From NCBI GenBank assembly GCA_029204225.1, contig CM055108.1:17517779-17581778 (forward strand): DNA of 64,000 bases, given 5' to 3'. The position numbers and the translations under genes are program-made. How positions within the stretch are numbered: the stretch's first letter is position 1; the number at the start of each line of letters is the position of its first letter. Under the pieces are notes generated by a model, which did no database searches, had not been told where the DNA came from, and saw only the letters and a program-made list of their open reading frames with translations. This document shows positions 20,232 to 64,000 of the stretch, piece by piece. Origin of the DNA: Diphasiastrum complanatum (Eukaryota; Streptophyta; Lycopodiopsida; Lycopodiales; Lycopodiaceae).

Positions 20232-21448
20232 ATGACTTACAAATCTTATTGGAAAGCAAAAATTTTGGAGTTTAAGACTACCCCGGGAGGTCAATCGATA
20301 TCAGAATTCTTAGTGCAACATGTATATATGCATTCAGAAATCAAAGTACATGATATCAATCCTCATGATCATCAACAATGTAATTGTAAGTATATCAAAA
20401 CATATGCACTCTACAACAATCATAGGTGATTTCCTTTATTGATGCTCTTCAGATTATGATTTAAATGCTTCAACATTGTTTTTTTCTTTCAAATTTATAT
20501 CCATCATGCATAAGTGAATGGGAGCCCGCACAATCACTTGCAGGAATATTAGACGTGATTCACTCTGATGTTGAAAAGCTACAATACAGAGGAAGAAGTC
20601 CAAAGAAACTTGCAGATTGTGGTATCTATTTTTATGAATCTTTATATACGCCACAAACAGATGGAGGTTTTGGCAAGCTCGAAGCAATTCCATTGCCTAG
20701 TTTTCAAAGTGATGAGTGGCCTACTCCTGACAGCATTGTTTCTGAATTCTTGAAATGCAAGCTACTCATTGATATTAAAAATGCTATGAAGATAAGCACA
20801 GGCTCAAAAATTGTTCACCTAAGTTGGTTTATCTCATTGCATACATTTGTTGATTTTTTCTCGAGTGCTAGTGTTCGTAGGACACCAACTTTATTTGTTT
20901 GCAAGGATTTATCAGATGAGACTTTGTCAGATCTCATGGATCAAGGTTGGGATAGTAAAACAAATAATGACATAGAATGCAGGATCAAAAAGTCCTCAAT
21001 GATCTTTCGTTATCATATCAAAAAGCAAATGCTCAGTCTCACATTTAGCTACCAGAGATACAAGAAAATTGAAGGTACATGGCTACCACTGGATCAAGAC
21101 TTTGAACTAAATGGTCACACAAACCGAATGGAGATAAGCATTATCTACAATGACGAATATTTGACTATGGTTGAGGTGGAAGAGCACTGGAAGCTTGATT
21201 TTATCAGAACAGAGCTCATGCTATTACAAACCAATCTACCAACATATTTTAGATTTATCATCAACGAAAGACTCGTAAGTACTTTATGTTTATTGCCATT
21301 TCAAAAAAGAACAAAATAATAGAAAATGTCATCATTTACAATTGCACATTCACTAATATTTGCCATGTCACAAATGCGAAAAAGACAGGAGCTGATAACG
21401 TGCTGCAAAGATCTACCTACAACAATCACCATTGTGGGAGAACAATAG
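20232..21448 (+). CDS. HU-1 plus-strand gene with possible beta-grasp C-terminus
   Basis: The upstream open segment 20232-20429 is followed by a main exon from about 20515 to 21274, a donor CTC|GTAAGT, and a short last exon 21389-21448 ending CCKDLPTTITIVGEQ. The homologue in HU-2 (58087-58985) keeps both the last donor position and the length of the last exon approximately. Conserved blocks are HLSWF, RTPTLFVCKDLSD, an aromatic strand FRYHIKKQMLSLTF and PLDQD. The C-terminal pattern (MVEVEEHW.L..IRTEL, then Y.RFII) resembles the hydrophobic spacing of ubiquitin-like beta-grasp folds. Function is unknown. It converges with the Ulp1-like gene 195 bp away. Confidence 0.55.
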
Positions 21449-21643: not shown

Positions 21644-22522
21644 TTAATTTAGTACAACTACATCATCCTTTGCACCATCATCAATAACGGGAGGCTGAAG
21701 CCTTGCCCTAGCCAGTATACTCAGGATAATTTCTTGTCTAAATCTGTACACCTGGCTTGATGTGTACTCAGGAAGTGTAAACTGCAAAATAGAACATTCA
21801 TGTATTAGTAATGGCCAATAACATCACCAGAATAGAGAACTAATCATGATTCCAAAATAAGAGTAAACAAAATTTATTACCTTAGAAATATCAACATCTT
21901 GTTGAAGGATGAACCACTCAAAAAACAACTTGGCATTTTACAATGTGTACCACCCACAGCTGAATGAATCATTTTGCTGGGGTGACTGCAAAATAATTCA
22001 ACACACAAGAAATCAATTATGAAACAGAATGAATTATATTGAGAATATTTAGAATACTGATTTCAAAATGCTATTAAGAAAGACAGAGTTTACCTCCAAG
22101 CTGGCGATCTGCCAGTTCACGGAATGGGGAACGTCTGTAGGAATATATTTACTTAGATATGGAATGTATATATCTACATCCTTATGTGTATTTCTCGCCG
22201 AATTCATCTTGACACAAAAACATTTGATAATATTATTTACAGATTTCTTAGTAGAGATCAGGTTTAAACTCCAGTGGTCACTGCAAAATAAGATTGAAAT
22301 TTCTTTAGTTGCAATTCTGAGAACTATTTTCATTGACAATGCCAATGTTAATGCATAAAACAGCAAGAAGAATTTAATATAACTTACTTTGTATGATAAG
22401 GTATGAGCAGATACTTTGTTGTTGGTGTGAATCCACTTGTCAAACACTGTGACAATGTGTCATTGTTCTCCTTGAAGGCCTGAAGCAGGAAGTTACTCTG
22501 CACCAACAACTCATTTGATGAA
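21644..22522 (-). pseudogene. Ulp1/C48 cysteine protease, catalytic exons (HU-1)
   Basis: Four exons on the minus strand: 22388-22522 (KYLLIPYHT), 22094-22280 (catalytic HWSLNLIS and KMNS), 21881-21985 (SPQQNDSFSCGWY, with the oxyanion Gln and nucleophile Cys) and 21644-21781 (VYRFRQEIILSIL, stop at 21644-21646). All introns have GT-AG ends with consistent phase. The third exon has one in-frame stop after CGWYTL. Ulp1 enzymes cut SUMO-type or ubiquitin-like proteins. The usual acidic residue after the His is replaced by Asn in KMNS, in both HU copies. The 5' part of the gene lies beyond the inserted Copia at 28685 and up. Confidence 0.85.
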
Positions 22523-28684: not shown

Positions 28685-29108
28685 TCTCTTGCAATGTCAT
28701 ATTGCAAGAGTGTAAGCCCGGACTCTATCACAGGATCACTGATAGAAGCCCGTCTGTCTTTGAGATCCAAGCAATCTAGAACTCTAAAATTAATACTAAA
28801 ATCAAGCTCATCTAGTCTAAAACAAAAAGGAGTACCAATTGTATCTATAGCATCCGATATGTCTTTCTCAAATTTAAGATAATCATCCGAATCTATATAT
28901 GTACAAAAATTTGGAGGAGGAGGAGAAGGTGGTGGATGTGTAGTATCTACAGCAATTATAGGAGTATCCAAAACAGAGGTAGCTATATTTACAGCATTAT
29001 CAACAACAGCATTATCTACAATGGATTCTGGGATAGGCTTCACAGAATCTGAAGTGTTAGGCTTCACTTTCTTAGGAGCACGCTTGGGGCCTGTCTGCTT
29101 CCTAGGAC
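28685..29108 (-). pseudogene. HU-1 linker and N-terminal part of the Ulp1-like protein
   Basis: Continuation of the protease gene on the far side of Copia-A2. It begins near CPRKQTGPKRAPKK (basic), passes a Pro-rich stretch (THPPPSPPPPNF), then a helical part ending ASISDPVIESGL, which matches SDISDPVVEAGL in HU-2 and leads into the protease fold. There is no ATG at the head of this frame. It is in the same frame as the start of the H3-like ORF 29529 and HU-2 shows the same relation, so this may be the downstream part of one protein. The open frame runs a few codons into the Copia LTR, which is accidental. Confidence 0.75.
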
Positions 29109-29110
29109 AA

Positions 29111-29155
29111 CCTATCAGAAAGATAGGTACTGTAGGTACCTATCCTTCTGATAGG
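29111..29155. repeat. 20-bp inverted repeat at the H3-linker junction
   Basis: CCTATCAGAAAGATAGGTAC (29111-29130), spacer TGTAG, then its complement with one mismatch (29136-29155). A partial third copy (CTATCAGAAG) follows at 29168. It lies exactly between the histone-fold end and the linker in HU-1 and is absent from HU-2, so it is a local expansion that may have altered the frame. Confidence 0.9.
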
Positions 29156-29529
29156 TACCTATAGTATCTATCAGAAGCTGAAAATCCTTGGGCATTATGG
29201 TAACCTTCTTGGTATGGATGGCAAGCAAAAAAGAATCTTAAAAAAAAAAGGCTAATATAATCTTCAGCAGCCTCTTGAAGGCACTGAAGAGCACTCGATG
29301 TGAATCGAACGTGCTGTCCGAGATCATTTCTTGTTATGTTTCGGATAGCACGGTAGAATGGAGCTCTTGGGATCAACAAAGCTGTTGACCTCTGATACTT
29401 GCGTATCTCAGAGGGCCACCTGCTGCGGTTGCACGTTCTAGGTCTAGCAGGTGGTGTGATGGCAACCGCAGGAGATGAGGATGAGCCAGGAAAGAAGAAG
29501 TCCCTCCTTGTCTGCTTTCTCCTATCCAT
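29140..29529 (-). pseudogene. Histone H3-like (CENH3-like) ORF of HU-1
   Basis: Taking the second ATG (29529), the start is [10 protein letters not shown], which keeps the R, K, Q and T of the H3 tail start. A Ser/Pro/Ala tail leads to the histone fold: [19 protein letters not shown] (alpha-N and alpha-1), [18 protein letters not shown] (alpha-2). A homopolymer T10 near 29245 then shifts the frame; the neighbouring frame carries [19 protein letters not shown], the alpha-3 signature of H3. LLIP, the one-residue-longer loop 1 and EAAEDY recall centromeric H3. Histone H3 variants package DNA with H4; here the gene lies inside a mobile element. Upstream on the opposite strand is the divergent gene at 30348. 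Confidence 0.85.
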
Positions 29530-29535: not shown

Positions 29536-30347
29536 GAACTATGTGATAGCAGACTTGTGCGTGAAGGTTAGGATGAGAAGGGAGGGATGATAAAGAGCTC
29601 GCAGAGGACCACTATGTACGGACATAATGTACGGTATATTGGACCTATACAAGCCGAATATCAGAGATAACGATTAGATTTGAGGAAAGATGCACAAGTA
29701 CGATATGGGATGACACGTAGGCAGACGTATCGGACCTGTGCGCATGGAAGGTAGTAGGAGGAATTTCGATTGTGAAGGGCGCGCACAAATGCGATATGCA
29801 GAGCGAAAAAAAAAGTGAAATTTGTGATTTTATATCGGGGTTCCCACGTGCGAAAGAACGTCCTGTCACACGTGTGGGAGTTGTACGGACAAATGTGAGA
29901 GTGACACATGTCACCCTATCACATTACACGTGTGGGATTCGTACAATCGAATGCGAGAGCGACACGTGCTTATGAGCAATCGAATGAACACGTGACACGT
30001 GTTCAGGTGTCATTTCACACGTGTGCAGGTGTCATCTCACATGTGCCTGCGCCTGTTGTCCAATTGAAAGTAGACATGTGTCATAAGTTCGTTGACCACA
30101 CGTGAGAGAATTTAGTATAAATGGCATGAAAACCGAATAATTTTTTACCTTTTGAGTTCTCAAAATTCGCGACATATCGCTTTTGTGCGCGCTCATTGCT
30201 GTCCGTTTGCTTGCAACTATACCTACTCACGCACAAGTGCGATATTCTGTATCTGTCTGTCGTACATATCTATCTTCTGCGCCATTTCGATAGTTAGTTT
30301 TGGTTCAGTTCTCCCGCGCGCACAAGTGCGATATTCACGTTACTGCC
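29536..30347. promoter_or_regulatory. Divergent intergenic region with CACGTG cluster and iterated GCACAAGTGCGATAT
   Basis: Between the H3-like gene (left, minus) and the 30348 gene (right, plus). Eight CACGTG palindromes, mostly within ACACGTGT, lie between 29845 and 30102, along with several ACATGT variants. A second motif GCACAAGTGCGATAT occurs at 29692, 29781, 30231 and 30318, and inverted at 30174. HU-2 has a comparable CACGTG cluster at the same place. It is likely a bidirectional promoter or a protein-binding array, for example for bHLH/bZIP factors or the element's own proteins. Small ORFs here are not credible. Confidence 0.65.
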
Positions 30348-31864
30348 ATGGCCTCTTCCTCATCATCCTCACGAGAATCGGGCTTGAGTTCATTTCTGAG
30401 TGAATTTGGGATTACTGAAAACCTAGACTACTTCCACAGTCTATTCAGGCCATATCTACATGTTTTCAGGACTGCACAACCAAATTTTGACGTATTTTAT
30501 GAACATTATGTCAGATTCAGAGATATACTTAGCAAGCTTGTTTTCTCCATAGGTCCACTCCAGTACATGCATTATACTGATCTTTTTCATTTCTTCCCAG
30601 CTTTTAGACATAGACTGGATAGAATGTTCACCAAATTGTTTGATCTTTTCAAAAGTAGTTCTATGTGTCCATATTGCAACAAGAAATGTCGATTGATTGA
30701 ATATCAGAGTGGTTTCATACTTTTTCTGTTAGTTCAGATCCCAGATGATGATGAAGTTCCTATTGGTGACCCTCCTTTTGCACCCTCCTCTGTTCAGTCA
30801 ACCATTAAAGATATCAGTCACTTTCTTATCGACACTCCTGATAAAAAAAGTGACTTTATTGACATAAATACTGATGTTCTCCGAGACTCTTTCATTGGCC
30901 AAAATACATCTAATGATGAATCCAAATCTATGGAGGATTCGAAATGTCTTTTCAATTTGCCTGTATATTATATTAATGATGATGTATATTTTACTACTAC
31001 TGATTTATGTAAAATTTTTGACTATCGTGAGAACGAGGTTCTATGTTTATTATCCGGCACAATTTTTGAATTCTCCGACTTTGTAGATTTTGAGACAGAT
31101 GACCTTGTTGCTGGTATTGATTTTGATAATGAGGAGGGTCTTATGACCGGTGAAGAATGTCTGAATAAGACTTTATCAAATATAGCTGAGGATGGGCGAG
31201 GCAGGCCATCCGATGAAGAATTCATGACATTTCAATCCCAGATGGGCTTCCCTCGTCCATCATTAATGCATTTCACTGATGATTTCACTTCAGTACGTGG
31301 TCATTATATTGATCATCCTAATCTGGTTGTTGCTGATGATGAAGAATGTGTAAGTGTTTAATCTTCCTTGTCTTTAAATGTTTTTAATCACTGAATGTGT
31401 TTTTGCTAACATATTTCCTATTGCAGGATGCTCTCATAATAGATGATTTTGCTGCGAGACGAGGTGGTTTCAGACAACACACATCCTCGTTCCAGAGGGA
31501 CAGTGGACTGGGCCACTATCTTCGACATTTCTTGAAGAATGAGATTTGTATTGCTCATTCCAAGCTGAGCCCAGTCGGGGAGAGTCTTATAATGGCAGTT
31601 AAAGCTTTATCATTTTATCTAGGAGGACATAAATTTTTTAAGACAAATAAGATCATTTTTGTCAAAAGATCTTATGTTTTGAACATTTTAGGCTTTACTG
31701 ATGGGAATGTTCCTTTAAGGAGCTCCCATTATTCATTGTATTCCACTTATATTGAGCTTAGTGGAAATAAGGATAATGCACATCTATTAGATGCATACGC
31801 TAGCAGAGAATTCCTTCATGACAGTACTACCATAGAATCTGATACAAGATCTGATGGTGAATAG
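30348..31864 (+). CDS. HU-1 plus-strand gene, two exons, function unknown
   Basis: Exon 1 is 30348-31349 (ATG in MASSSSSSRESG), donor TGT|GTAAGT; exon 2 is 31427-31864, acceptor TTGCAG. Joined, it encodes 479 residues. HU-2 keeps the same phase-0 intron (62181/62275) and the block SDEEF..FQ, and after the junction DDFAARRGGF and HYLRHFLKNEIC. A CPYCNKKC knuckle near residue 105 may bind zinc. The C-terminal part (IMAVKALSFYLGGHKFF, IIFVKRSYVLNIL) is well conserved with HU-2. The gene looks intact here. A DNA-binding partner of the transposase is a guess. Confidence 0.7.
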
Positions 31865-31989
31865 TTGACTTTTTGTATTTTGGTATAATACAATCAATAC
31901 ATTTACATTGGATATTTCTCCTCTCTTGTTCAATGAATTTGCAAAGCAATTATGAACATGTCATGATGATCTTCTACTCAGCAATCATC

Positions 31990-34500
31990 TAATTTTCTCT
32001 TCATGTATGAACTTGCATGCTTTTGTAAACTTGTTGTATTGTGTGGACTTTGTTATATGTCGAATCTAAACTCTGCAGTAGAACCACTGAAACGATTGAC
32101 AAATGTAGTTTCGTTTTTCATTGGTTCCTCCATGTTGTGTATTTCGATGAAATACTGCTCGTGCTTGCCAGTGTGACTTCTCCATCCCTTGTGATGACCA
32201 TACACTCAAGCTTCCGTATGTATTTGCAAAAAATGTTGTATGACCTCTTAGTATGTGCTGCATATGTCAAAATCATAATGTTAGTCTTATGTTTGGATCT
32301 AAATATATATGAAAATTTGAAAGCATTTTGAAAATTTTATACTTACCATGTAATGAGTGATGTGATCTTCTCCCCATGCTTTTGATATTGCATTAACAAA
32401 CTCGATACAAGTCCTTTGGACAGCTTTCTTATCAATATCAGAGTATTTTTCTTTGCTTAAAATAGCAATCATACTATCAAGCTTTTTCCCTCACATCAAC
32501 TTTAAGTACTTTGGTTTTTCCGTCTTTCTCGAAGTCCTGAGTGGCAGCAATAATATCTGTCCAGACTGAGTGTTGAATATTAGAAGCCTTACCAGTATGA
32601 TTTGATAGAAAACGACATGTTTTTGCTCCTCCTATGCTTGGCTTAGTTGGCATGTTCCCATTCTTTCCTGAAAGCTTTTCATCTTTTTGAATTTTGGCAT
32701 GTCCTTTATGGAGTCTAGCTTTTGATAAAACTTCTTCTAATCGAGAGATAGCTTCCTTTGCTAATGATGTCGGCTTAGTATTCCAAGCAAAAACTATATG
32801 AAGATAAATGATCTTTTCTATTAATCTAACTTCTGCATAAAGAGTGCAAACATGCACATTTTTTAAGGGGGTAGGCAGCACAGGCTTCCAATTTGGATTT
32901 GCATATTCTCTAGTAATTCCTTTACTCCTAGTTACATCTTTTGTCATTTTCATGCAGTACAAACAAGGCTGTTTTGATGTAGCACCGTGAGAGACATTAT
33001 ACATACATTTCAATGTTTTCAAATCACCTGCTAAGTGCCATTCAACATTGAAGTCTCCAACTCCTGGAACATTGAGAAGTCCTCCATCCATATGGTCCTT
33101 GATGATCCTAGGATAAGATGTCCTTGAGAATATCCATATACCTGAAACGCTGCCAACCACCATATATCATTTTTTGACTGGACACTGAATTTGAAATCTT
33201 CTTGGTTCTCTATTTGTGATAGAGCACCATTCATGAGAGTTATACTAACCCTTTCCATCTTCTGCCCTTTCACAATTTCTGACTCATCTAACTTAAGTAC
33301 TATGATTATTCACCTTTTCATAGGTTATATCATAGAATGTGACGATGTATCTCAGCAAGTAATTTAGATCAACAAATAAATTGTTTGATGAATTATAGAA
33401 TATCGATCTTCCATCAGTTTCATACACCTCCTCAATATGAAATGGAGTTCCAGTGATCTTATGCATACCTATGTTTAATGTATCCCTCTCTTTCTTCAAG
33501 TGATATGTCCTAGGGATTGGGACTTTTCTAGTTCGAACTTGCTTAAAAGCTTATCTAATTAGTTTAAATATTGTTGCATATGCTTCCCTACTAATACCTG
33601 CAAAATCACAAGCACCCTAAACTATAGTCTTATCTAAAATATTTTGAATGTCCACCATCAAAGACTGCTATTTTACACTTTACATTTGAAATCCTATTGT
33701 TCATCATGATACGCTCAGTGGATTTGCAAGTCAATATTGTGCCCAATGACATTCCTAGTGAAGCATTGTCTTTAATATTTCGAGGAGCTACTAATGCAGA
33801 TCTGCAAAAAAAATAGATAGTTAACAAAATATCACCATAGCTGAAATTAAATCCAAATGTCATTGAAAGACTTACAAAATTTAGAATATGCTTACTTGAA
33901 TGCACGAATCCTTCTATTTCGATAACCTCCTTTTGAAAGCGTTTGAATATCCTTGCAACTTTGTCGCTTTCGCTTCTTACTTTCAGCCTTCTTCTTTACC
34001 AAATCCACATCCTTCAGTAATTGTAAGTTTTTAATACGAATAGATTGTAAGACTGATTGCATTTGCTCTAGTTCTGATTTGATATTGATTGTTATCTTCT
34101 GTAATGATTCATTATTTTTTCAAGTTGTTCATTTTCTTCTAACGTCTTTTGGAAATGACAATCTCTATTCTGAAAAGACATCCATTTTGGCTCACATATT
34201 ATAAGAGGATATCCGAATTAACTCACCTTCTAAAAAGTGAACTTTATTCATATAAAGTTGTTTTCCATGGTTTGCAATCTTTCACAATATCCTAGTAATC
34301 CAATATGCCCATTGCATATCCATGTAACTAAATGAGTTATTGAAGAGAATGTGGGATGTGTCAAAGTGCTTGGATCTTGTGGATATAATGTTCCATTTGT
34401 CCACAAATCCATGTTTTTCTTTCCTTCTGCCCTGCAACGAGAACGATCTTCAGCAGATATTTGAACTCCTTTGCCTCCTCTTCTCTACAAAGGTGCCACA
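31990..34500 (-). pseudogene. Transposase-like gene of HU-1 (multi-exon)
   Basis: Read on the minus strand. 5' exons near 34250-34480 and 33900-34020 (basic KKKAESKKRKRQSCKD) lead to a core (about 32477-33290, frameshifted near 33100): FNVEWHLAGDLKTLKCMYN, then CLYCMK (CxxC), HLHIVFAWN, and KPSIGGAKTCRFLSNH. The exon ends at 32347 with donor GTAAGT, and the next exon from about 32264 has GSLSVWSSQGMEKSHWQAR and FHRNTQHGG, with one stop after FQWFYCRV. An Asp in GDLK, a CxxC, and a Glu in QGMEKSH fit a DDE/RNase H-type transposase layout, but I cannot assign a superfamily. The HU-2 homologue is at 62431-64000. Confidence 0.6.
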
Positions 34501-34900
34501 TCAATAGGGATATCCACATGTAGATGATATAATGTCATCATCAAAAAAATAATAGAGTAATCAGTTGCATCACAGTACTATGACCAGATTCTATGAAGCA
34601 AAACAAAATACTCATCTTTGATTATATTATATACTATGTACGATCAATACAATCTCCATGCTTGTATGCTTGATTCAAATTTGGAAATGCCGCTCATTTT
34701 TTCATTCCAATAGGTAGTTGCGCTCATATTTCCATTCTCGTGGAAGGAATGCATATGTAAACATTTTGCAATTTTTCCTGATTCAAATTTGGGGATGGCG
34801 GTCATATTCTAGATCCAGTGAAAATATTGCCCTTTTCGTAACCAATGGAGGGAATATTTTTGAATTTTATCAAGTTATACTGCGAACTGTTAACAGTTCT

Positions 34901-35289: not shown

Positions 35290-35720
35290 ACTAGAACTTC
35301 TAGAGTTGAAGGGACTATAGTAGGGGATTTGGCTTGTGCTGCTATTGGTAGTATTTCTAGTTTGTAGTATGGTGGCTAGATCTACTCATGGATATAGTAT
35401 AGTTTTAGAGAGGATCATCCACTTTTTAGGAATCTACCAAGCTTTCAAATGGAAAATAAACAAACAAGGATGGAGCACCAAGGCTTTCCTGGGGCGAAAA
35501 TAAAATTAAGTTGACTAAGGCTTACCCAACTAGCCTAGATTGACAAAACAATAAAACCGCCACAATAAACCGATGAAAAGGTGACAAGAGGAGGCCCGAG
35601 CACCTTCCCTCAAGCTATGCACCTTTCCAAAGGGAACACAAGTGACAGCAAGATAATCTCAAGAGAGAGCAATTTAGCATAATCTCAAAAGTATTGTGTA
35701 CAGTTCTTTTTGAAGATTTG
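35290..35720 (+). repeat. Dispersed repeat, left copy flanking Copia-B2
   Basis: Begins near GTTGAAGGGACTATAG and runs to AAAGTATTGTGTACA. It matches 42189-42733 in direct orientation but lacks an internal block of about 110 bp present in the right copy. Neither copy encodes a protein I trust. Confidence 0.85.
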
Positions 35721-35936
35721 TCATGGGGCCATCATCAAACTGCCTCATGGTATGCCTAAGGTGTCGAACATGTTGTATTGGAGCTCATTCACCAACCAAA
35801 CTGCTTTTTGGGTTGTGAGGGATAATTGCTCCCAAGCCCAATGTCAGGGAGTGTGCGTGTATAGATAGGATATGGCATGGGATTGAATGGAAGAAAATCT
35901 GGAATGGGGGGACATGTTGGAGTGTAAGCAAATGCA

Positions 35937-35957
35937 GGGGGGGGGGGGGCGGGGGGG
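35937..35957 (+). other. G-run with quadruplex potential
   Basis: Thirteen G, one C, then seven G. It lies in otherwise non-coding sequence (35721-36086) where no gene is seen. The run may also be a sequencing-length artefact. Confidence 0.8.
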
Positions 35958-36086
35958 TCATTGTGGGATGATAGGAGATGATTGTGGTAGGAGGGCTGGT
36001 GACTGAATGCGAGTTGGAGATGTGTGAAGTGGATTCGTTGTGGTGGTGGTGGATGTGGTTTGTGTGAATAGTTGTAAGGCAAAATC

Positions 36087-37323
36087 TATTGGAATTTAAT
36101 CTAACTCCTACTCATCCCAACAACCCTTCTTCCTTCTCTAATTTTAACTCTCTCAAATGAAACCTGCAGAAAATGAACTGCTTTTCAACAATCTGCATAT
36201 AAGAACTAATTGTCGCTATAGTCTACATTTTTACTTAGGTTTTCCCACAGGCAAAAAACCCGACACCCGACACTGTCGCTAATTTTTACCTTCCTGAACA
36301 ACTAAGTGTTTAGCGACACTTATGTAAGTTTTTTTTGGGCCATTTAGGCACTTCCAGAAAAGCGACACTTTTTGCAATAAGTGTGACACTACATTTTTAC
36401 ATGCAATTTTTGACAGGCAACAATAGGGCAAAAAGCAACACTTCTTTTTTATATGCAGTTTCTGACAGGCGACAAAAAGGCGAAAAACCCGACACTGTAG
36501 TTTTACATGGAATATTACACAGATGACACTCTGTAGATATACACAGTATTTCAAGTGGCAAAAAATCCGACACTGCAGTTTTACACGGGATACTACACAG
36601 GCGACACTCTATAGAAATACACAGTTTTTTTAAGTATAGACTTTCTATATCTTCACGCTCCAATAACAACTGTTCTAATTAGTCAGTTGATTAGTTGTTA
36701 AGAAATCTTGTAAATGTAAAGCTAGAATAATACAAGATCTTCCAGTTGCTATAAATGTAAATGAGCAATTGAAGATATCATAAGTTAGAAGTCATAAGTT
36801 ATCTAACAAAGATACAATGACCAGAACGAGTCTTTTAGTAGCTGACTCCTCAAAGTTAGTGACTATAGAGAGAGGTAGAGATATTCAAAATGTTAGCAAT
36901 TGTTTTGAATCTGTAAGTAGGATCACACTTATCATTGCAACTGTATTGTGACCTGATCGTTGTGTTTACAACATTATAACACAAATTCGCTATTGTTCTA
37001 TACTATCGCATTCTTATTGAATAATAATAACTCTCACTCCTCTTACACAAACATTATTATCAGAGAAATGTATGGCTATCTCTAACGCCTAGATTAACTT
37101 TACATTCTCTTTAAATCAGATTATCAGTTGTAGAAGATTGCATGGCTATCTCAGATGCCTAATCGCCTCTACAATTCCTCTTTCACGGCAGTCTAAGACT
37201 CCTACACTGATCATCTGATTCAACACAAAAGAACTGCTTGTAAACTCCATTTGCTAAGTAATCCACCATCCTGTTATTAAGAATTTTTGTTTCATCAATT
37301 GACATCAATCCAAAATGTCAACA
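36087..37323 (+). repeat. Left LTR of Copia-B2
   Basis: About 1237 bp from TATTGGAATTTAATC (expected TGTTGG) to ATGTCAACA. Internal repeats of about 70 bp built on GGCGACACT and TTTTACACGGGATACTACAC lie at 36330-36630, as in the other B LTRs. Confidence 0.88.
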
Positions 37324-37339: not shown

Positions 37340-37483
37340 TGATAATTTACATTCCTCGCATCCCACAAAGTGGTATCAGAGCTCACAAGTGGTATCAGAG
37401 CCACAGGTTTATTGGATTACTAGAGTCTAGGACTTATAACAGAACTTAATACATTCTAGTTCTATAGAGTTGGTTCATTCAAT

Positions 37484-40400
37484 TTGTGTTTTATCTCTTA
37501 CTCAATTACAATGGAAGGTTCAACCTCAGAGATCCTCTTGATCAACAAATTCAATGGAGATGACTTCCACATGTGGAAGTTTAAGATGAGGATGATCTTG
37601 ATCGAGAAGGAGCTTTGGGGATATGTAAATAGTTCAATAGCCAAACCGGCAGAACCTAAACTGCTTCCAGCATGGAAAGCAAAAGATGGCAAAGCACTTG
37701 CCATTGTATCCCTGAACCTAAAGGACACTCAGATTGCTCATGTATCAAACAACACCACCTCCAAAGAAGCGTGGGACATCCTTACAGGCATCTATGAGAC
37801 CTCAGATGTTTCCCTTGTCTCTTCTTGAGAAAGAAGATATTGACACTCAAAATGAGTCTTAGGCACCTCAGTCAGCGACCATCTGAATGAGTTCAAACAG
37901 TTGCTAAACCACCTGGTTGCAATAGGTTCACCTATCTCAGAAGAAGACTCTATTATGTCTTTTCTTGTCAGTCTTCCATCCTCCTACAACAATTTAGTGT
38001 TGCTTCTTAGCAATACTCTAGCGTTGTCTCTCCAAAAATTGACAACAAGTCTGTTGCAAGAAGAAGTTAGGAGGAAAAGCTTGTCTTTGACAATGAGTAC
38101 CAAATCCATGGCACTCTACTCAAACAAGCAATAGTCCAAGAAGAAGAAAGATTTCAAGGATAAGAAGACTTTGGCAGAATAGCCAGTAGCATCGCAACCA
38201 CAACAATAGCAGCACAGTCAATCATTGTTTAAGACCAAGCTATTTTGCAGATATTGCAAAAGAACCAACCACGACATCAAATACTGTCGCATCCTCAAGC
38301 ACAATGAAGCAAGGAAGAAGATACAGCAGTAGCAAGAAGGCAACTCTGACACAATCAGAGGTTTGCAAGATGATGATAAAGTGCTAATGGTACAAGATCA
38401 ACCCAATAGAGATGCCCATCAATGGTATCTCGATTCAAGTGCTTTTTAGCACATGAAACCATGCAAAGACCTCTTCTCTACACTCACAACTACAATATCA
38501 AAGTATATCTTCTTTGGTGACTCCAGTTCACATCAAGTCGAAGGAAAAGGCTCTATTCGACTACAATTCTCTAATGGCATCACCAGGCAACTTAATGGTG
38601 TACTTTATGCACCCAAGTTAACAAAGAACCTATTGTCTACTAGGAAGATCACTAAACATGGCTATAGAGCTTGTTCACTACCAGTCAATGTACTATTTTA
38701 GATGAGAATTCAAAAGATATTCTCTCTACTTACAAAGAAGGAAATTCATATATACTGAGTCATGATTTTACACTTTCTGTGAGCGGTTCAGATGCTAATT
38801 TATGGCATCAAAGATTAGGTCATCTAAACATGCATTCAATCTTGTATATTCATCATAACAAAATGGTCAATGACATGAATATAAATTTTGTTACTACAAC
38901 TAATCAGTCTGTCTGTAAAAATTGCTTACTAGGGAAACAACCTAGAACTAGATTTCCAAGAGGACAAGCCAAAAGGGCGAAGTCCATTGTGTCACTGATA
39001 CACAGTGACTTATGTGGTCCTATGAGCGTATCTTCCTTAGGTCAAGCTCTGTATTTTATTACATTCATTGATGACTACTCCCAATTTACCAGAATTATGT
39101 TCATAAAGAACAAGTTAGAAGCATTTAGTTGTTTCAAAGATTTCAAGCAACACGCTGAGAATCAAATTGATCAGAGGATCAAGGCCCTACGGTCTGATTC
39201 AGGGGGAGAGTACTTATCAAATGAAATGAAGGACTACCTATCTTCATGTGGCGTGCACCATCAGTTTACTACGAGCTACGCTCCACAACAAAAAGGAGTA
39301 GCTGAACGAAAGAACCGCACACTATTGGAAGCTGCACAATCCATGACAATCAATGTGCATTTGCCTCAAACCTTTTGGGCAGAAGCGATCTCTATGGCCT
39401 GCTATCTGCAAAATTACTCTAGTAGTAAAGCAGTTGATTCCAAGACACCGTTTGAAGCCTAATACGACTACAAACCAAGTTTGAAACACCTACATGTTTT
39501 TGGATGTCTCTGCTATGCACAAGTACCATCTGATCTGAGGAAGAAGCTAGACCCAGTAAGCTGCAAAAACATCTTCATCGACTATTCAACATCACACAAA
39601 GCATATCGTGTATATGATGTTGATACAGGTCAGATCTCAGTCAGCCGTGAAGTTATCTTCCTTGAAGACAAATTCCATGATTTCAAGCAGAAGCAGCCAA
39701 TGCAAGAGCATGCCATAGCAGCTCCACCCTCCATCAATAGTCAATGTCCTACGACTATTCAAACAATGAAGTGCATCCCAATGACTCCACTTACCGTCGA
39801 TGGACCAAGACCCGCGATTGTTCAACCACAAGATGCCACAATCCCAGTCATTCACCAAGGAGAATTGTTTGCTCATGCACCTACAGTTCGAAGGTCTGTA
39901 AGACAACGACAACAGGTTGATCGCTTCGTCCCTCAAACTTTCATCAGTCATGATGAACCTGCCACCATAGCAGAAGCCATGTCAATGTCCAATGCAGAAA
40001 AATGGAAAGCTGCCATGGATGTTGAGTATCAGTCTCTAATGAGTAACAAGACCTGGAGTCTTGTCAATCCTCCTATAGGTGTAAAACCAATTGACTCCAA
40101 GTGGATCTTCAAGCTAAAGCTTAAACTAGATGGATCAATATCCAAATGGAAAGCTAGACTGGTGGTTAAAGGATTTGAACAAGTATTTGGAATAGACTAC
40201 ATTGAGACCTTTAGTCTAGTGGTAAAGCATCAACCTATTCGTATCTTATTGGCTATAGCTTCTACAAAATATTTGGACATTCATCAGACGGCATTCCTAC
40301 ACAAATATATACAAGAAGACATATTCATTTATCAACTAGAAGGTTACGTCTTTCAAGGTAAGGAGCATTTGGTATGAAAATTGCATAAGGTATTATATGG

Positions 40401-41519
40401 TCTTAAGCAAGCTTTGAGGGCCTAGTATGAAAGAATCAATCACTTCTTGTTGCAGCACAATTTCACATCGTGCTCCATAGACTCTAATGTATATCTCGAG
40501 CGTAAAGGGTCAAGCTATGTTATAATAGCATTATATGTTGATGATTCTTTAATTATCAGCAATTCAGATCAGTTATTACAAGAAACCAAATCTCTATTTT
40601 CATCAGAGTTTGAGATGACTGATTTAGGCCCAGTCCATTACCTTCTCGGTATGGAGATCAACAAAGATTGCGCGAGCAGAAGGATCACCATAAGCCAACA
40701 ATCTTACCTAATAAATGTACTTTGTAGATACAGCATGGAGGATTGAAAATCCATAGATACTCCTATGGATCTAGGATGCAAGCTATCCAAAGACATGTGC
40801 CCCAGAATGAAGACAGATCAACAAGAAATGTACAAGTACCCCTATCAGTCAGTCATAGGTTCTATCATGTACACTATGATCTACACACAACCTAATCTTG
40901 CATATGTTGTAAGCACACTGTCTCAATACATGTCCAATCCAGACTTACAGCACTGGAAAGCTCTGCAAAGAGTACTGAAGTACATTCAAGCCTCAAAGCA
41001 CTATGCCTTGAGTTACAACAGAAATATAGAAGCTGCACTCTCATTGATTACCTATTCTGATTCAGACTGGGCAGGAGACGTAGATACCAGGAAATCCACC
41101 TCTGGCTACATTTTTTTTCTTGCAAGAGGATCCATTTCATGGAATAGCATAAAGCATAAATGCATTTCGTTGTCCTCTACAAAATCAGAATACGTTACAG
41201 CTACATCAACAGTGAAAGAAACAATTTGGCTAAGGAGGTTGCTGCAAGATCTGAGTTTCCCACAAATCGGTCCAATAATACTCCAATGCGACAATCAGAG
41301 CTGCATAGCACTATCTTTGAACCCATGAACTCATAATAGAACTAAGCATATAGAAGTTCAATTCCATTTTCTTAGAGAGAAAGTTCGGAATAAAGATGTT
41401 GTACTAAATTACTGTCATACAGACAATATGTTGGCTGATATTTTGACAAAGCCATTGTCTAGAGATAAACATTCTACTTTAGTAGATATGATAAATCTCA
41501 ATTGCAGTTCAGATTCGTA
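37484..41519 (+). pseudogene. Copia-B2 gag-pol remnant
   Basis: Gag starts at ATG 37511 (MEGSTSEILLINKFNGDDF); CCHC knuckle CRYCKRTNHDIKYC near 38242; protease WYLDSSAF with a stop after it (DSG changed to DSS). Integrase is at 38671-39462 (LWHQRLGH, FIDDYSQF, RSDSGGEY) and the RT region at 39481-40746 (YVDDSLIIS). RNase H is at 40765-41328 (STSGYIFF, LSSTKSEY). At least six stops or frameshifts interrupt it. The integrase core is better preserved than in B1. Confidence 0.92.
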
Positions 41520-41539
41520 GCAATTAGCTTAAGGAGGAG

Positions 41540-42189
41540 TGTTGAAACTTAATCTAACTCCTACTCATCCCAACAGCCCTTCTTCCTTCTCTAATTTTTA
41601 CTTTCTCAAACGAAACCTACAACAAATGGACTATTTTTCAACAGTCTGCATATATGAACTAATTGTCGCTACAGTCCGCATTTTTACTCAGGTTTTCCCA
41701 CAGGCAAAAAACTTGACATCCGACACTGTCACTAATTTTTACCTTCACGAGCAACTAAGTGTTTAGCGACACTTATGTAAGTTGTTTTTGGGCCATTTAG
41801 ACACTTCCAGAAAAGCCACATTTTTTGCAAAAAATGCGACACTACATTTTTACATGCAGTTTTTGACACGCGACAATTAGGGCAAAAAGCGACACTGCTT
41901 TTTTACATGCAGTTTCTGAGAGGCGACAAAAAGGTGAAAAACTCGACACTACAATTTTACACGGGATATTACACAAGCGACACTCTGCAGAAATACACAG
42001 TATTTCAAATGGCAAAAAACCCGATACTACAGTTTTACACGAGATACTACACAAGCAACACTTTGTAAAAATACACAGTATTTCAAGTACAGAGACCGTC
42101 TATATCTTCACGCTCCAATACCAACTATTCTAATTAGTCAGTTGATCAGCTGTTAAGCAATCTTGTAAATGTAAAGCTAGAATAATAGG
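41540..42189 (+). repeat. Right LTR of Copia-B2, truncated
   Basis: Starts TGTTGAAACTTAATC after AAGGAGGAG. It matches the left LTR for about 650 bp to GCTAGAATAATA, then breaks into the dispersed repeat. Confidence 0.9.
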
Positions 42190-42733
42190 AGGAGCTATAG
42201 GATTGAAGGGACTATAGGAGGGGCTTTGGCTTGTGCTGTTGTTGGTAGTATTTCTAGTTTGTAGTACGGTGGCTAAATCTACTCACGGATGTAGTATAGT
42301 TTTAGAGAGGATTGTCCACTTTTTAAGAATCTACCAAGCTTTCAAATGGAAAATAAACAAACAAGGATGGAGCACCAAGGCTTTCCCAACTGGTGCCCGG
42401 GGCGGAAATAAAATTAACTTGACTAAGGCTTACCCAACTAGCCTAGATTGACAAAACAATAAAACCTTGCTAAGGTGGTGCCCAACTAGCAAGATCACTA
42501 AACTAGATCCTATTTTAACACCCAAAAGGGAGATGGAAATAATAGATTGCGGCTAATTAAGCAACTAGCAAATAAAGCATGCCACAATAAACCGATGAAA
42601 AGGAGACAAGAGGAGGCCCGAGCACCTTCCCTCAAGCTATGCACCTGTCCAAAAGGAACACAAGTGAAATAGCAAGATAATCTCAAGAGAGAGCAATTTA
42701 GCATTATCTCAAAAGTATTGTGTACATGACCAA
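42189..42733 (+). repeat. Dispersed repeat, right copy flanking Copia-B2
   Basis: Direct repeat of 35290-35720 with an extra internal block (about 42465-42580). It begins exactly where the B2 LTR is cut off, suggesting a recombination joint. Confidence 0.85.
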
Positions 42734-50897: not shown

Positions 50898-51833
<936 letters not shown>

Positions 51834-52787
51834 ATGGATCTTTCTCTTTCCTTGAACTGTAATTATAAGCGAGCATTGGAAGGTGAAGAATTAGTCAAGT
51901 GCCCTCATTGTGAATCTCTTAATACAAAGTTTCGCTTTTTCAACAATCATAAAGAGAATCAACCGAGATATAAGTGCAAAGATTGCGGCCTCACATTCAC
52001 AAAGAATGGGAAGGTAAGAAAAAGGAGTAAGCTGCATGTGCATGAGCAAGAAGAGCAAGTGCTAGTCATGACTCAAAATATTGCACATGAAGAAACAACT
52101 GAATTTGAAGGATTATCTCCACCAAACACTTGGCAAAGAACATTGGAGTTGGACAAATTAGGAAGTAATTGCTTGCATTGTGGCTCCATGGATATCAAAT
52201 TCCGCTATTTCAACAACAAAAAGCAAAGCCAAGCGAGATACCTATGCAGAAATTGTCATAAAACATTTACACGGGGTGGAAAATTAAGGAGCGGGACTAC
52301 GAAGCTGGTTAATTCAGTGCAACCAAGCCCCCGTGATTATAACGTCAAATCCCCTATAATTGAGGAAAATTTCGACAATATTGAAGCATCACCACCAACA
52401 CTTGATCAGGGTTGTTGGGACGACTACAACGTCTTTGACATTCAAAACGAAACTTTATTGAACATATTCACGGAAGAAGATGCAAAGCTGGTTGAAGATT
52501 GGATTGGAGGATTGACAGTTGATCAGCTTATGCGCAATATTGAATCTGATCAAACATGTGCTATGGGAAATTCGTATATGTACGAGGATCAAAGTCGCAG
52601 CAATATGCATACTGAAAGCCTTGAAGCAACCGAGCTCCCAATTGAAGATAATTTGGACAATGACTATCTACTCAACATTGAAGATTTGCAGTTCACAATG
52701 GAAGATTTGGGCAAGCTCAACTTTCTAGAGGACATTGAAGATTTGCTGGATTCATTGGAGAGTCATACTCCAAACGATACTACATAG
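51834..52787 (+). CDS. Dof-like zinc-finger protein with two Dof domains
   Basis: A 317-residue intron-less ORF from ATG 51834 (the frame is open to a GTG at 51789, but eukaryotic initiation favours the ATG). Dof proteins are plant-specific DNA-binding transcription factors recognising AAAG. Two complete CX2CX21CX2C fingers are present: C23, C26, C48, C51 and C113, C116, C138, C141, with typical surroundings (TKFRFFNN...QPRYKC and IKFRYFNN...QARYLC). The conserved Trp of the usual RYWT is Phe (LTFT, KTFT). The N-terminus DLSLSLN fits an EAR repression motif (LxLxL), and the C-terminal 80 residues are acidic (LEDIEDLLDSLES). Most Dof proteins have one finger. No lesion is seen, so it is probably functional. 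Confidence 0.9.
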   Translation: MDLSLSLNCNYKRALEGEELVKCPHCESLNTKFRFFNNHKENQPRYKCKDCGLTFTKNGKVRKRSKLHVHEQEEQVLVMTQNIAHEETTEFEGLSPPNTWQRTLELDKLGSNCLHCGSMDIKFRYFNNKKQSQARYLCRNCHKTFTRGGKLRSGTTKLVNSVQPSPRDYNVKSPIIEENFDNIEASPPTLDQGCWDDYNVFDIQNETLLNIFTEEDAKLVEDWIGGLTVDQLMRNIESDQTCAMGNSYMYEDQSRSNMHTESLEATELPIEDNLDNDYLLNIEDLQFTMEDLGKLNFLEDIEDLLDSLESHTPNDTT

Positions 52788-58086: not shown

Positions 58087-58985
58087 TTGGATAGACAAAG
58101 TAGTCAAGTGAGCACATCGTATCCACATTACAAATTGGGAGAGTCTAGGACATTGGGAATAGTTGCGCCAATCTATGAAGAGCAATATCAGCAAGTTTTA
58201 TCTTGGGATACTCTAATGGAATGCCTCGACTACCCAATTGTCAATGAACAAGGTTATCCGGAATGGCCACCAGAATCTTAATGCTTTTGTTCCAAGCTAT
58301 ATAATGATGTACAAAAGTCACTCAAAACTAGTACAGGATCCAAAAATGTGCACTTAAGCTGGTTTGTTCCAATGTCATTGTTTGTCAGCTCTTTTTCAAA
58401 CACGGAAGTGCATCGAACTCCCACATTGTTTGTTTGCAAAAATCTTTCAGATGATTTTTTATTCAAATTCATGGACAAAGGTTGGGATATAAGATCCACT
58501 GCAGATATTTCTTGTAGAATCAAACTTTCATCCATATCATTTAGATACAATATAGAAAAGCAAATGCTTAGTATGGTGTTTCATTATCAGAGATGGAAAG
58601 AACACAATGGTACTTGGGCCCCATTAGATCAAGATCTAGACAACATTGGACACACTGATCGTATAGGCATTGATATCACGACAAATGGGGATTTACTTAC
58701 TACTATTGAGGTTGAGCAAGACTGGACCTTATTCTACATTAGAACGGAACTGACACTTTTACAGCAAGTTATCCCCGAATATTTCAACTTTATATTAGAT
58801 GGAAAATTGGTATGTAAAATCCATGAATTTGTATATTGATTTATATTCATTATCCTTTTTGTCAATATTTGGATCACTAACTGTAATCTGATTAATGTAT
58901 GTTTGTGCATATACGTAAAAGACATGAAGAGAAAATCAAATGCAAAGATTTGGACAGAATTGTTCAGATAATAGAGCAATCATGA
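58087..58985 (+). pseudogene. HU-2 plus-strand gene with possible beta-grasp C-terminus
   Basis: Homologue of 20232-21448. A frameshift or stop near 58279 separates YPEWPPES from the main part KNVHLSWF...RTPTLFVCKNLSDD, PLDQDLDNIGHTDRIGI and the C-terminal IEVEQDW.L..IRTEL then YFNFILDGKL. The donor TTG|GTATGT at 58809 and the last exon (about 58932-58985, KIKCKDLDRIVQIIEQS) parallel HU-1. The DG between the last strands is as in ubiquitin-like folds, but there is no C-terminal Gly-Gly. Confidence 0.6.
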
Positions 58986-59162: not shown

Positions 59163-60606
59163 TTACAGCTCAAAGTAGTATGGATAATTTCCACCCTGCA
59201 CTAGTGTCAGTTGTTGACTTGATTGGCCTCCCGTTTCTGCAGCTGGACTGGGTGTTGCATTAGATAATAAGTTCACCAACATCTGTTGACGAAACTCATA
59301 TATCTCATTCATTGAAAATGCTCAACATTTATACTGCAAATCCAAAAGAACCGAGTCAATTGACTTATCAAAAACCAAATCGAAAACAACTTAGTTAGGC
59401 CATTCACTAGTCTATTTACCTTTCGTATATCTGGAGCCCTGGATTGCATGATGTACCACTCTAAAAAGTCCTATACATTGCGGATGGAGAACCATCTACA
59501 ACTATGTCCATCCTCTTGTTGAGTTGACTTCAATCACAAAACGTATAATAGGTTAGTTATGCACTCTGAAAAAAACAGATCATATTACCTATCAAATACT
59601 TGATGAGAAATACTTACTTCTACATCAACAATCTCCAGGTGTCTATTTAAAGTGGCCCCATCCGGCCTTGGCAAAAATGGCAACATTCTGCTGTACATCA
59701 CGTCCATTTCGGCATGGGTAGACTTTAAGGAGTTCATCTTTAAACAGATGGGATTAATGATCCCATATGAATCTTCCCTAAGGGAGATTATATGCATACT
59801 CCAATGCTTACTGCAAACAAGAGATAATTAGTTAAACTAAAGGAATTACAATACCTATTAAAAATATTACTAGAATATATTCTATGTAATCACTTACTTT
59901 TGGCAGTATGGAATAATAAAGACTTTGGTCTCCAAGGTTGTATGGAGAAGATACTTCATCGCCTTAGTTGGACTATGAAGGCTGTGTGAGAAAAAGGACA
60001 GCACAACTCCAATGTCCTTAGTATCATCGCATGACATCTATTTACAAAATACATCAAACCAGCCTCCACAACTGGATCTGATATATCTGAGGTCTTCTCC
60101 TTCAGGGCATCACAAAAGTCTTTATTTATGTGATTTATATAATTAATTGAACTTAGAAAAAAAGAAAATTGACCACCTAGCTTGTCAATTTCTTTGGCAA
60201 CATACTCATCAAAAATTATATACCTCTAAGAATCCAAAAATGAATCTTTGGGATCAACAGGAAATCTTACACAAAGATCCTTATAAAAATCGCCTATTAA
60301 ACTTAAATCTAGATCTGATATTATGTTATCTACAGTTGAGTTCATATCCTCGTTATTGTGAGATGGAATGGAGGGAATGGAAGAGGAACTACTTGAATAG
60401 TTAGGGGTGGTGGGAGGAGAAGAAAGCACTGCAGACTGGTGTGATGGTCCAACCAAAGGACGAGAGATGTGAGGGGGGGATGGTGACTCACTGAGTACCA
60501 CCCTTTGCTTGGCAGGCCTATTGGGCTTGGTCTACTTCGTTCTTCGTTGAGGAACAAGACCTCTCTCTATAGGTGGTGACCTAGAAGTGAAGCCACTCTT
60601 AAAGAC
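59163..60606 (-). pseudogene. Linker and Ulp1/C48 protease of HU-2
   Basis: After the H3-like stop the same frame continues with PIERGLVPQRRTK, a stop, then a Ser/Pro-rich linker (60226-60501), another stop, and KEKTSDISDPVVEAGL. A frameshift near 59950 leads to KVFIIPYC. Exons: to 59898 (donor GTAAGT), 59618-59810 (catalytic KHWSMHIIS and KMNS), 59420-59527 (STQQEDGHSCRWF with Gln and Cys; one stop) and 59163-59333 (IYEFRQQMLVNLL; one stop). Intron positions and phases equal those of HU-1. The Gly after the catalytic Cys is Arg here. Not functional as it stands. Confidence 0.85.
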
Positions 60607-60987
60607 TTAATCGTATGTACTCCTCAGCCTCATGACAAGATGCATGTCCTGAGGCATGAGGGTAACCCTCTTAGCGTGCACTGTACAAAGCATGGAGTCC
60701 TCAAAGAATTTGACTTGGAAGTCCTCATAGGTAGTATGGAGGGCTTCCAGGACTGTTATGTTCCAGCGAACATCATGTGAGAGGGACCTTGTTACCAGTC
60801 TCACAGACCTGTAGAAAGGAGCACGGGGAATCAGAAGATTTGTGGTCCTCTGAAGTCTCCTGATATCCCTTAACCATGGTCTTCTGGGCCGACCTACTCT
60901 CCTACCAGTTCCCACTGCCCTTTGTAGAGGAGGGTGAGGAGGCGGGGCAAATGTGGTAAGGCAGGCTGTCTGCTTGGTACGGGCCAT
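60607..60987 (-). CDS. Histone H3-like (CENH3-like) ORF of HU-2
   Basis: 126 residues from ATG 60987, open throughout. The tail begins MARTKQTA, the canonical H3 start with Lys4, then turns Pro-rich and loses the Lys9 and Lys27 contexts. The histone fold runs from about residue 40: [18 protein letters not shown] (41-58), VRW (73-75), and EDSMLCTVHAKRVTLMPQD (96-114). LLIP, VRW and DSMLC...RVTLM are features of plant centromeric H3. The stop falls at the residue where canonical H3 ends. The linker of the protease gene follows in the same frame, so the stop may be original (separate histone) or a decay lesion in a fusion. Core positions such as LEALHTTYEDF are diverged. Confidence 0.85.
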   Translation of the reverse strand: MARTKQTACLTTFAPPPHPPLQRAVGTGRRVGRPRRPWLRDIRRLQRTTNLLIPRAPFYRSVRLVTRSLSHDVRWNITVLEALHTTYEDFQVKFFEDSMLCTVHAKRVTLMPQDMHLVMRLRSTYD

Positions 60988-61983
60988 TGCAAGGTAGGGT
61001 ATCGATATGACGCACCAACGAGCAAGGAAAGCAAGTATTCGACAGGGGAGGTGAGTGATGGCGATATGAGTGATGGTGTATCGCCACGACGCATGGGTAG
61101 GCCAGTTGTACTGGTATGTGGGTCCTTTGGCGCGTGGTAGCGATATGCGTCTAACGTGGTGCGGAAGTGGACGAAGGAAACTAAGGAGAGCCAGAGAACA
61201 AAGAATTAAGAAACTGAAATAAGACCCAAAAATGTCCTATAGAACATCCCATCATATTCACACGTGTGATGTGACAGCTCCACTCCCCGCACGTAGTGCA
61301 ATCGACATTGTATACTTGAGAAAATCCTTTGGCAACAAGTCGAGCTTTCCTTTTGTCGATGATCAGACGGCTGGCATGCACGTGCGAGGACACATGGCGA
61401 CATTTGGACTACACACGCGTCAGAAGACGACTGGGGCGTACGATAGTACAGTTGTCATGCACGTGCGAGGACGCGTGTCAGGATCCGAAGTGTACACGTG
61501 TCATTCAGAATGATTTTGCCGTCGTTTCCACACGTGTGGCAATTTTGACCGCACATTCTGAGACACATGTACGGTTCAGATGCCCTGTATTAGACTATAT
61601 ATATGAGTGTCATTTCTGTAATTCAGTTTCGCATATTGAGTCCAATTAACCGGCCCGCTCCAAATCTGTTTGTACAATATCGCTACCACGCGCCCAGCAA
61701 AGACATCCATAGTTGCACTGATTCCCTGGCACGTGAGCCAAATCTGTGAAATGCACAAATCTCAAGCCGTCCATCAGAAGGGTACCTTGTTGCAAGCACT
61801 CATAAAAATCCTTTTACAATTTAGAAAAAAATTTCTTGTGCTCAATAACAAATCTCTCTATGTCAAACTGAAAATCGAAATAGGACAAAAAATGGGCCTG
61901 TCTGTCGCTAACCTCAGCATCAACTGGGAAAGAACTAAGAGTTTATCATAGATCAAACTAGCAGACGAGGAGGCCATATCAAT
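60988..61983. promoter_or_regulatory. Divergent intergenic region of HU-2 with CACGTG cluster
   Basis: Lies between the H3-like gene (minus) and the 61984 gene (plus). CACGTG occurs at about 61262, 61379, 61459, 61495, 61531 and 61728, mostly as ACACGTGT or GCACGTGC, with ACGCGT variants. CGATATG and GACGCA motifs recur around 61001, 61052, 61079, 61142 and 61983. Same position and motif as HU-1. No credible gene. Confidence 0.62.
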
Positions 61984-62430
61984 ATGACGCGCCGGTTAGC
62001 AAGGGAACATAAACGAGGTAAGCGTGAGGCTAATATGCCCAGTGAGGAGGAGTTTTTGGCTTTTCAGAAAAAGTATCCGCCACCTCCCACATATACTATT
62101 CCAGCTAACCAGCAATCCACCATTATTGCTGGTCACAATCTAGATGCTGCTGGTATGATCCAAGCTGACGAGGAGGATTTGGTAAGTACACCTTCTCACG
62201 AAAATCATTCATTATTTAACGTGTAATTGATTATTGATCTGCTAGTTTGACTAACACTTGATTATGTGTTGTAGGATATCATTGAAGTTGATGCCTTTGC
62301 TAGCAGGCATGGAGGATTGAGAGAGAGACTAGGCGGGAGACAGAAGGATGCCTCATTGGCTCATTATTTGAGACATTTTTTAAATAACAAAATTTGTGCT
62401 CTTCATGAAAGGTTTTTTGTAAATGTAGAA
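61984..62430 (+). pseudogene. HU-2 plus-strand gene, cut by inversion
   Basis: Exon 1 is 61984-62181 (MTRRLAREHKRGKREANMPS, basic start; EEEFLAFQ), donor TTG|GTAAGT; exon 2 starts at 62275 (EVDAFASRHGGL, HYLRHFLNNKICALHER). The frame is lost at about 62430, where an inverted segment begins. Exon 1 is much shorter than in HU-1 (66 versus 334 codons), lacking the CPYC region. Confidence 0.65.
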
Positions 62431-63147
62431 ACTTTATCGTCGATTTTTATCAAATCATTCTAAAGAGTCGTCTAAGATCCAATATTCGGTTTGGAAAGAT
62501 GTTATTTCTATGACAGAAGACTTTGAAGATAAAGGAACAACAAGGGTAAAGAAGGTTGAAGTTTGAAAAAAGCTCGATAATATGATTGAAGTGCACAACA
62601 ATAGAGTTTGTAGATGCAGTTCGGGTGGCTTGGGGCTTAGATCACATCACCCACTATATGGTAAGATACATTTGAACAGTGTCTTAAAATTTTATAATTT
62701 TAGTATAACTTGCTTGATAGATTCTAACCAATGCATAAATCTTTGATATTGCAGCACATACTAAGGCATCATGCATCATTTTTTGCAAAAAAGTATGGCA
62801 GTTTGAGTATATGGTCTTCACAAGGAATGGAGAAATCACATTGGCAGGCAAGAGCAGCATTTCATCGAAATACGCAACATGGTGGAACATCCTCAAAAAA
62901 TAGTTACATCATTCAGCTATTCCAATGGTTTTATAGACGAGCTCAAGTTCGATACACAACAAGATCAACTGAATATCAAAGATTCAAAAAAGCATGTAAA
63001 TTTATTGCCAAAATTAGATTGATGGCATTCAATAAAGATCAAACACGTGTGATAAAAAACTCTCAAATTTCACATACATTAAATGAAAAAGAGTACAATC
63101 ATTTTTTTTCATTGTCTCTAAGGACAATTTTTGTTGTGTGGTCATGA
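62431..63147 (+). pseudogene. HU-2 transposase-like gene, inverted C-terminal part
   Basis: On the plus strand: RRFLSNHSKESSK and SVWKDVISMTEDFEDKG, a stop near 62566, an intron ending GCAG|CAC at about 62754, then GSLSIWSSQGMEKSHWQAR, FHRNTQHGG and FQWFYRRAQVRY. It matches the HU-1 minus-strand gene at 31990-32615, but here lies on the opposite strand from its own N-terminal part (63386 up). Confidence 0.7.
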
Positions 63148-64000
63148 AGGAATTTTTTCTTATCATACGGAGTCAAAAATCGAGTGGATCGCCTTTTGCT
63201 CAAATCTATATATCCTGAAAGAATTGCCAGAGCAAAGGATCTCATAGGAACATTTTTTGGCACGTAATTAAACACTTTAAGAGCAACATCTCTTTTGACA
63301 AAAATGATTCTATATGTATTTTTTGGGTATTTATGCCCTTGGGCAAAATAAGATAGGGCCTTGATGGCCATGATTTTGACTCCTCCTATGCTAGGTTTAT
63401 TGCGTATGTTTCCTGTTTTTCCCAAAAGCTTTTCATCTTTTGTATTTTAACATGGCCTTTATGGAGGCCTGCTTTTGACAACACGTCCTCTAATTGAGCA
63501 ATTGCTTGTTTTGATGCTAACTCTGGCTTAGTATTCCATGCAAACAAGATATGAAGATATATTAATTTTTCTATGATCCTCACCTCTCCATGAAGTGTGC
63601 AAATATGCACATTTTGTAAAGGGATTGGTAGTACTGGTTTCCAGTTGGGATCTTCAATATCTCTTAAAACTCTTGTGTTCCTTGAAATGTCATTTGATGA
63701 TTTCATACAATATAGACATGGATGTTTCGAATTTGCTCCATGAGATACATTGAACATACATTTCAATGACTTCAGCTAAATGTCATTCCACCAAAAATTC
63801 ACACTTTTCAGGAACACTAAGTACTTTGCCATTCATATGATCCTTTATGATATCTGGATAACTTGTTTAGCTAAAAATCCAGGAAAGAACATCGTGATCC
63901 TGTTCAACATATGGATCACAAGTTTTTATGTATTCAAAACAATTACCAAAAGAAATTGCACATGAATAACAGCCATTTTTTACCTGAAAACATGCTAGCC
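63099..64000 (-). pseudogene. HU-2 transposase-like N-terminal part joined to plus-gene C-terminus
   Basis: On the minus strand: a decayed start (TSYPDIIKDHMNGK with stops near 63870), a small deletion replacing the AGDLK block, CMFNVSHGANSKHPCLYCMK (CxxC kept), HLHILFAWNTKPE, then KPSIGG. At about 63367 this joins in frame to IMAIKALSYF and IIFVKRDVALKV, which in HU-1 is the C-terminus of the plus-strand gene. The chimera results from the inversion. The element continues beyond the window. Confidence 0.68.

Follow-up and report, generated by a model that had tools for sequence, protein, structure and literature searches.

A hAT transposon carrying a histone H3-like gene (H3L) was published in 2013 for the fungus Pyrenophora tritici-repentis, with 26 H3L copies in the genome (PMC3538342). 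Ulp1 protease domains also occur in DNA transposons, among them Kaonashi (KIU) and other Mutator-like elements (PMC13317346) and Ginger1 (PMC2836005), and Ulp1-bearing Vandal elements evade silencing (PMC13317346). Here we describe a 64,000-nucleotide stretch of the clubmoss Diphasiastrum complanatum (contig CM055108.1, positions 17,517,779 to 17,581,778; hereafter the window, within which all positions are counted). It contains two decayed copies of a multi-gene element. In each, a histone H3 and a SUMO-protease-like enzyme seem to form one gene, next to a transposase with the fold of the immune recombinase RAG1; the element may thus once have encoded its own chromatin protein.

The clubmoss element resembles the Pyrenophora one as a DNA transposon whose H3-like gene (in the fungus neither canonical H3 nor CENH3) lies beside a transposase and an open reading frame (ORF) of unknown function. 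The fungal element differs in its host, its hAT transposase and its near-identical copies, and the available parts of its report mention no protease joined to H3 (PMC3538342). With Kaonashi, the other Mutator-like elements and Ginger1 it shares the Ulp1 domain, but those have different transposases, and the available parts of the reports mention no histone (PMC13317346, PMC2836005). Fungal TET/JBP transposons, some of them CMCT and including ESTA, are likewise DNA transposons, some with a RAG1-like transposase, and encode an enzyme presumed to act on chromatin against silencing; their cargo, however, is a dioxygenase and their hosts are fungi (PMC12730594). Features in common with ProtoRAG and Transib are the RAG1 fold, the D-D-C(2)C-H(4)H-E plan and another gene that converges on that of the transposase (PMC9435367, PMC4411706), and one survey mentions 39 Transib-like proteins in plants (PMC9435367). 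Unlike ProtoRAG and Transib, the window element has four genes, no RAG1 profile match, a gene A without a Kelch or PHD match in Pfam, and no CAC-type ends that we could find. The author of an earlier note on this DNA knew of no described plant transposon with such content. Our literature search, within the accessible parts of the sources, also found none, nor any H3-Ulp1 fusion in a transposon, but an H3-like gene in a DNA transposon was already known from the fungal hAT element (PMC3538342). What would be new is the joining of H3 to a protease of the Ulp1 kind in a plant transposon with a RAG1-fold transposase. Provided that the fusion is both real and expressed, a histone would serve the transposon to anchor an enzyme on chromatin and so to counter silencing directly, and a RAG1-fold element of several genes would be shown to exist in a plant.

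The histone was recognized in an open ORF of 126 codons at 60607..60987, which lies on the minus strand (the earlier note named none), with its ATG at 60987 and its stop at 60609-60607. It matches the Pfam family PF00125 (E 5.3e-23; 82 bits, cut-off 26.4) and H3 chains in the PDB (E 3e-22, residues 1-123 covered), so that the H3 assignment withstood the profile check, and the VRW and FEDSMLC..HAKRVTLM motifs are read in it as had been noted. Its closest relative among 55 matches is P0002, a protein of Diphasiastrum complanatum (64% identity, E 3e-43). Scored against lists of contact residues, this H3 retains 7/7 H3-H3' residues and 7/10 DNA contacts, the second H3 of the window retains 3/7 and 7/10, with 9/14 H4-facing residues, and two CENH3s taken for comparison have 7/7, 6-7/10 and 10-11/14. 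The N-terminal tail of this H3 is short, and its single lysine is K4, as in the second H3 and in P0002; canonical H3 has 8 tail lysines, four CENH3s have 4-9 and P0133 has 10. The earlier note had taken the stop for the canonical H3 end. It is probably premature instead, because P0002 continues past it with matching sequence. Among the other H3 proteins, P0109 (735 aa, environmental) has its H3 domain at the C-terminal end, and P0176, P0180 and P0182 have long stretches N-terminal to the H3 fold; proteins in which H3 is attached to further sequence may occur more often than has been noted.

The second H3 (29151..29529, minus strand, interrupted by a stop and a frame break; recognized by homology to the first and to P0002) belongs to a homologous element about 30 kb away, as the earlier note had said, which also has relatives of the transposase, the protease, gene A and gene D. 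Of the two copies, E1 spans about 20.4-34.5 kb, and E2 runs from about 58.2 kb up to the window end or beyond. They have the same gene order: gene D (+), H3 with the Ulp1-like protease (-), gene A (+) and transposase (-). The idea of a multi-gene element with an H3, a protease and a transposase-like gene thus gains from this shared order in two diverged copies and from a RAG1-fold transposase, the fold having been found on a relative. One part of it has to change, as the protease does not appear as a separate gene: it follows H3 on the minus strand, on its 3' side and in H3's own frame, in both copies.

In E2, the linker and N-terminal part of the Ulp1-like domain (60031..60606, minus strand, homologous to E1) has 2 stops in 192 codons in the H3 frame, whereas each of the other frames has 17. 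The E1 counterpart (28690..29114, minus strand), read in frame with the H3 ATG, is free of stops over 142 codons; the other frames have 14 and 17. The catalytic part follows at 59417..60025 in E2 (minus strand, presumed exons with HW and QQEDGHSC) and at 21878..22507 in E1 (minus strand), beyond an inserted retrotransposon, where the exons match PF02902 at 28.9 bits and so pass the cut-off of 20.7. The catalytic residues of Ulp1 (C48) proteases are His-Asp-Cys and Gln, and the His, Gln and Cys are present in both copies.

The E1 transposase (31988..34535, minus strand, with frame breaks and presumed introns) is RAG1/Transib-like by homology and residue plan. A RAG1/Transib fold was found for a relative of this DDE protein, and the E1 composite fits the D, D, C(2)C, H(3-4)H, E plan of the CMCT/RAG1-Transib group (PMC12730594). 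Its spacing (C at +20 and +23, His 25 and 20 before E, D2-E 256) lies beside RAG1 equivalents of 19, 22, 25, 20 and 254 calculated from the residue numbers available in PMC4914335. Matches to E1 locate the E2 transposase in a middle part towards the window end (63375..63914, minus strand; LKSLKC, CLYC) and in C-terminal parts, including the SQGMEKSHW exon, that are inverted relative to E1 (62439..63018, plus strand). The transposase has 42 homologues, several 58-69% identical to E1 and one 96% identical over a quarter of the query. Plant CACTA (TNP2) identity was not supported: the Pfam tnp2 profile PF02992 is absent from the Pfam matches of 7 homologues at E up to 1. A viral structure library gave 0/166 matches at E <= 0.001, and no relatives were confirmed among the viral contigs and genome contigs searched.

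Protein identity between E1 and E2 is 68-77% for the transposase (68% over one stretch of 113 aa), 54-56% for gene D, 44-45% for the 3' part of gene A, 39-47% for H3 and 32-49% for the protease parts. The nonsynonymous divergence (dN) is below the synonymous (dS) in all nine segments compared, with dN and dS of 0.77 and 2.41, and 0.50 and 1.92, for H3, and of 0.19 and 1.81, and 0.16 and 1.59, for the transposase. Because dN is below dS, though dS is near saturation, this speaks for past coding selection on the element, not for present function. Both window copies are dead: E2 has an inversion (about 62413-63389), in-frame stops and a frame break, and E1 has a broken H3 and a long terminal repeat (LTR) retrotransposon within its protease. 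This retrotransposon (22523-28679) has 682-bp LTRs that are 98.4% alike, TG..CA ends and the target site duplication (TSD) ATGAA; positions 1-5167 hold a relative of it in inverted orientation.

Our best explanation, to which we give an even chance, is that the ORF may be the 5' part of a gene joining H3 to an Ulp1-like cysteine protease in a plant CMCT DNA transposon of the RAG1/Transib/EnSpm-like group, with H3 anchoring the protease against silencing. We are largely confident of the anatomy, that is, of an H3-Ulp1 gene, gene A, gene D and the transposase in one element, and only tentative about the mechanism. Our model would have the H3 part pair with H4 and then join or dock on nucleosomes, where it would deliver the protease to the chromatin of the element; the protease could strip silencing factors of SUMO or a similar modifier, and a tail with K4 as its sole lysine would allow no K9 or K27 methylation. 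The earlier suggestion that the histone protects the element from silencing fits better than centromere targeting, chiefly because H3 is joined to the protease, which had been taken for a separate gene. A bolder version, which we consider doubtful, is that nucleosomes of its own are built by a plant transposon family with the RAG1 fold: an H3 with nucleosome contacts and K4 but no other tail lysine, tied to a SUMO(-like) protease, would make element chromatin that is neither K9/K27-methylated nor SUMO-silenced.

Several observations weigh against this best explanation. No intact fused H3-Ulp1 ORF was seen in the window, both copies having stops or frame breaks, and the second half of the E1 H3 is in another frame, between two breaks. 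P0002 terminates nine residues past the E2 stop site, and the fused-looking proteins from outside the window, P0133 and P0178, have no significant match to the window linker-protease (Z -0.3 to 2.3). The E2 H3 has just 7/14 H4-facing residues; the E2 protease scores 14.7 bits with PF02902 (E 0.029), below the cut-off; and, by eye, the expected triad Asp reads Asn in both protease copies. A sequence profile search of the PDB with the transposase and with its last exon gave no RAG1, dS is infinite in three of the nine segments, and the element termini were not found by short-word blastn, a scan for terminal inverted repeats (TIRs) with TSDs, or a CAC/GTG scan around E1. Transib ends are CAC-type TIRs with a 5-bp TSD. 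The TIR and TSD scan gave 1 match, against 0-4 in five shuffles, and the CAC/GTG scan gave no convincing pair of ends around E1; the element is decayed and the right end of E2 lies outside the window.

The claim that H3 is a CENH3-like variant that steers the inserting element into centromeric or otherwise special chromatin draws on PRAPF, RW and FEDSMLC..HAKRVTLM, which resemble plant CENH3, and on the majority of named plant matches to the ORF, which are CENH3 or H3-like. Two H3 trees bear on it, one with 143 of 149 rows (6 left out as partial or gappy) and one with 58 chosen of these 143 (85 left out); lycophyte CENH3 is absent from both. The 58-row tree unites the transposon H3s in one group (84/75), with P0013 inside, and places them outside the 19-row CENH3 branch (91/94), some of whose rows are labelled CENH3 just from grouping with named CENH3 in the 143-row tree; a weak wider branch (87/82) spans both groups and excludes canonical H3. 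In the 143-row tree, the window H3 is away from CENH3, and the transposon H3s do not group together: E1 H3 pairs with P0113, and P0133 and P0178 are placed elsewhere. Loop 1 of CENH3 is longer than in ordinary H3; E2 has no extra residues there, while E1 and P0002 are longer. Neither tree puts the window H3 in CENH3, so CENH3 identity and centromere targeting are not supported, and we regard this account as very unlikely.

More weight attaches to passive cargo, in which an H3 fragment was captured by transduplication and joined to the protease by chance, without use to the element. Transposons commonly capture host genes, the role of the Pyrenophora H3L is unknown in the available parts of its report (PMC3538342), H3 evolves faster than the transposase (dN 0.50-0.77 versus 0.16-0.19), and both window H3s belong to dead elements. 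However, H3 is at the same place in two far-diverged copies with dN below dS, and E2 keeps all seven H3-H3' residues (E1 three), which leaves this account somewhat unlikely. The stop near the H3 end in E2 and the annotated P0002, of 137 aa and without a protease, would agree with H3 and protease being genes apart, the H3 gene reaching to 60607 and the Ulp1-like one following downstream, but the shared frame with few stops in both copies, the reading of P0002 past the E2 stop site and an E1 linker-protease ORF without a Met ahead of the retrotransposon junction make that distinctly improbable. Least credible is a host gene cluster duplicated in the region, with no transposon: the like orientation of both copies inside 64 kb, and scans without TIR or TSD, would suit it, but the RAG1-fold DDE protein (on a relative) and the 42 homologues, with the identities given above, speak for a mobile element.

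The remaining parts of the element are genes A and D and the stretch between H3 and gene A. E1 gene A was read as an ORF at 30348..31861 (plus strand) with one presumed intron (31350-31427); in E2, its 5' and middle part lies at 61978..62412 (plus strand), matching E1, and its 3' part, inverted relative to E1 and 44% identical to it, at 63132..63389 (minus strand). Gene D lies at 20465..21316 in E1 (plus strand), and its conserved part in E2 at 58261..58836 (plus strand, 54% amino acid identity to E1). It matched no Pfam family above cut-off, and its structure model (pLDDT, a model confidence score, of 41) was too poor and was discarded; by eye only, its C-terminal part has a ubiquitin-like look. 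The E2 stretch 60988..61977, between the divergent H3-Ulp1 and gene A, would by its position be a shared promoter. In E2 (60988-61984) and in the E1 counterpart (29530-30347), many ACACGTGT-like palindromes were noted by eye, which could be regulatory sites.

Elsewhere in the window, repeats at 5167-9522, 35301-37227 and 38308-42386 are 75-93% alike and about 27.7 and 33.1 kb apart, and a Copia-type gag lies with them at 37460-37825. Dof proteins are plant-specific and usually have one Dof domain; the protein encoded at 51789-52784, which speaks for a plant as the source, has a pair of these zinc fingers (PF02701 in two stretches, E 7e-32).
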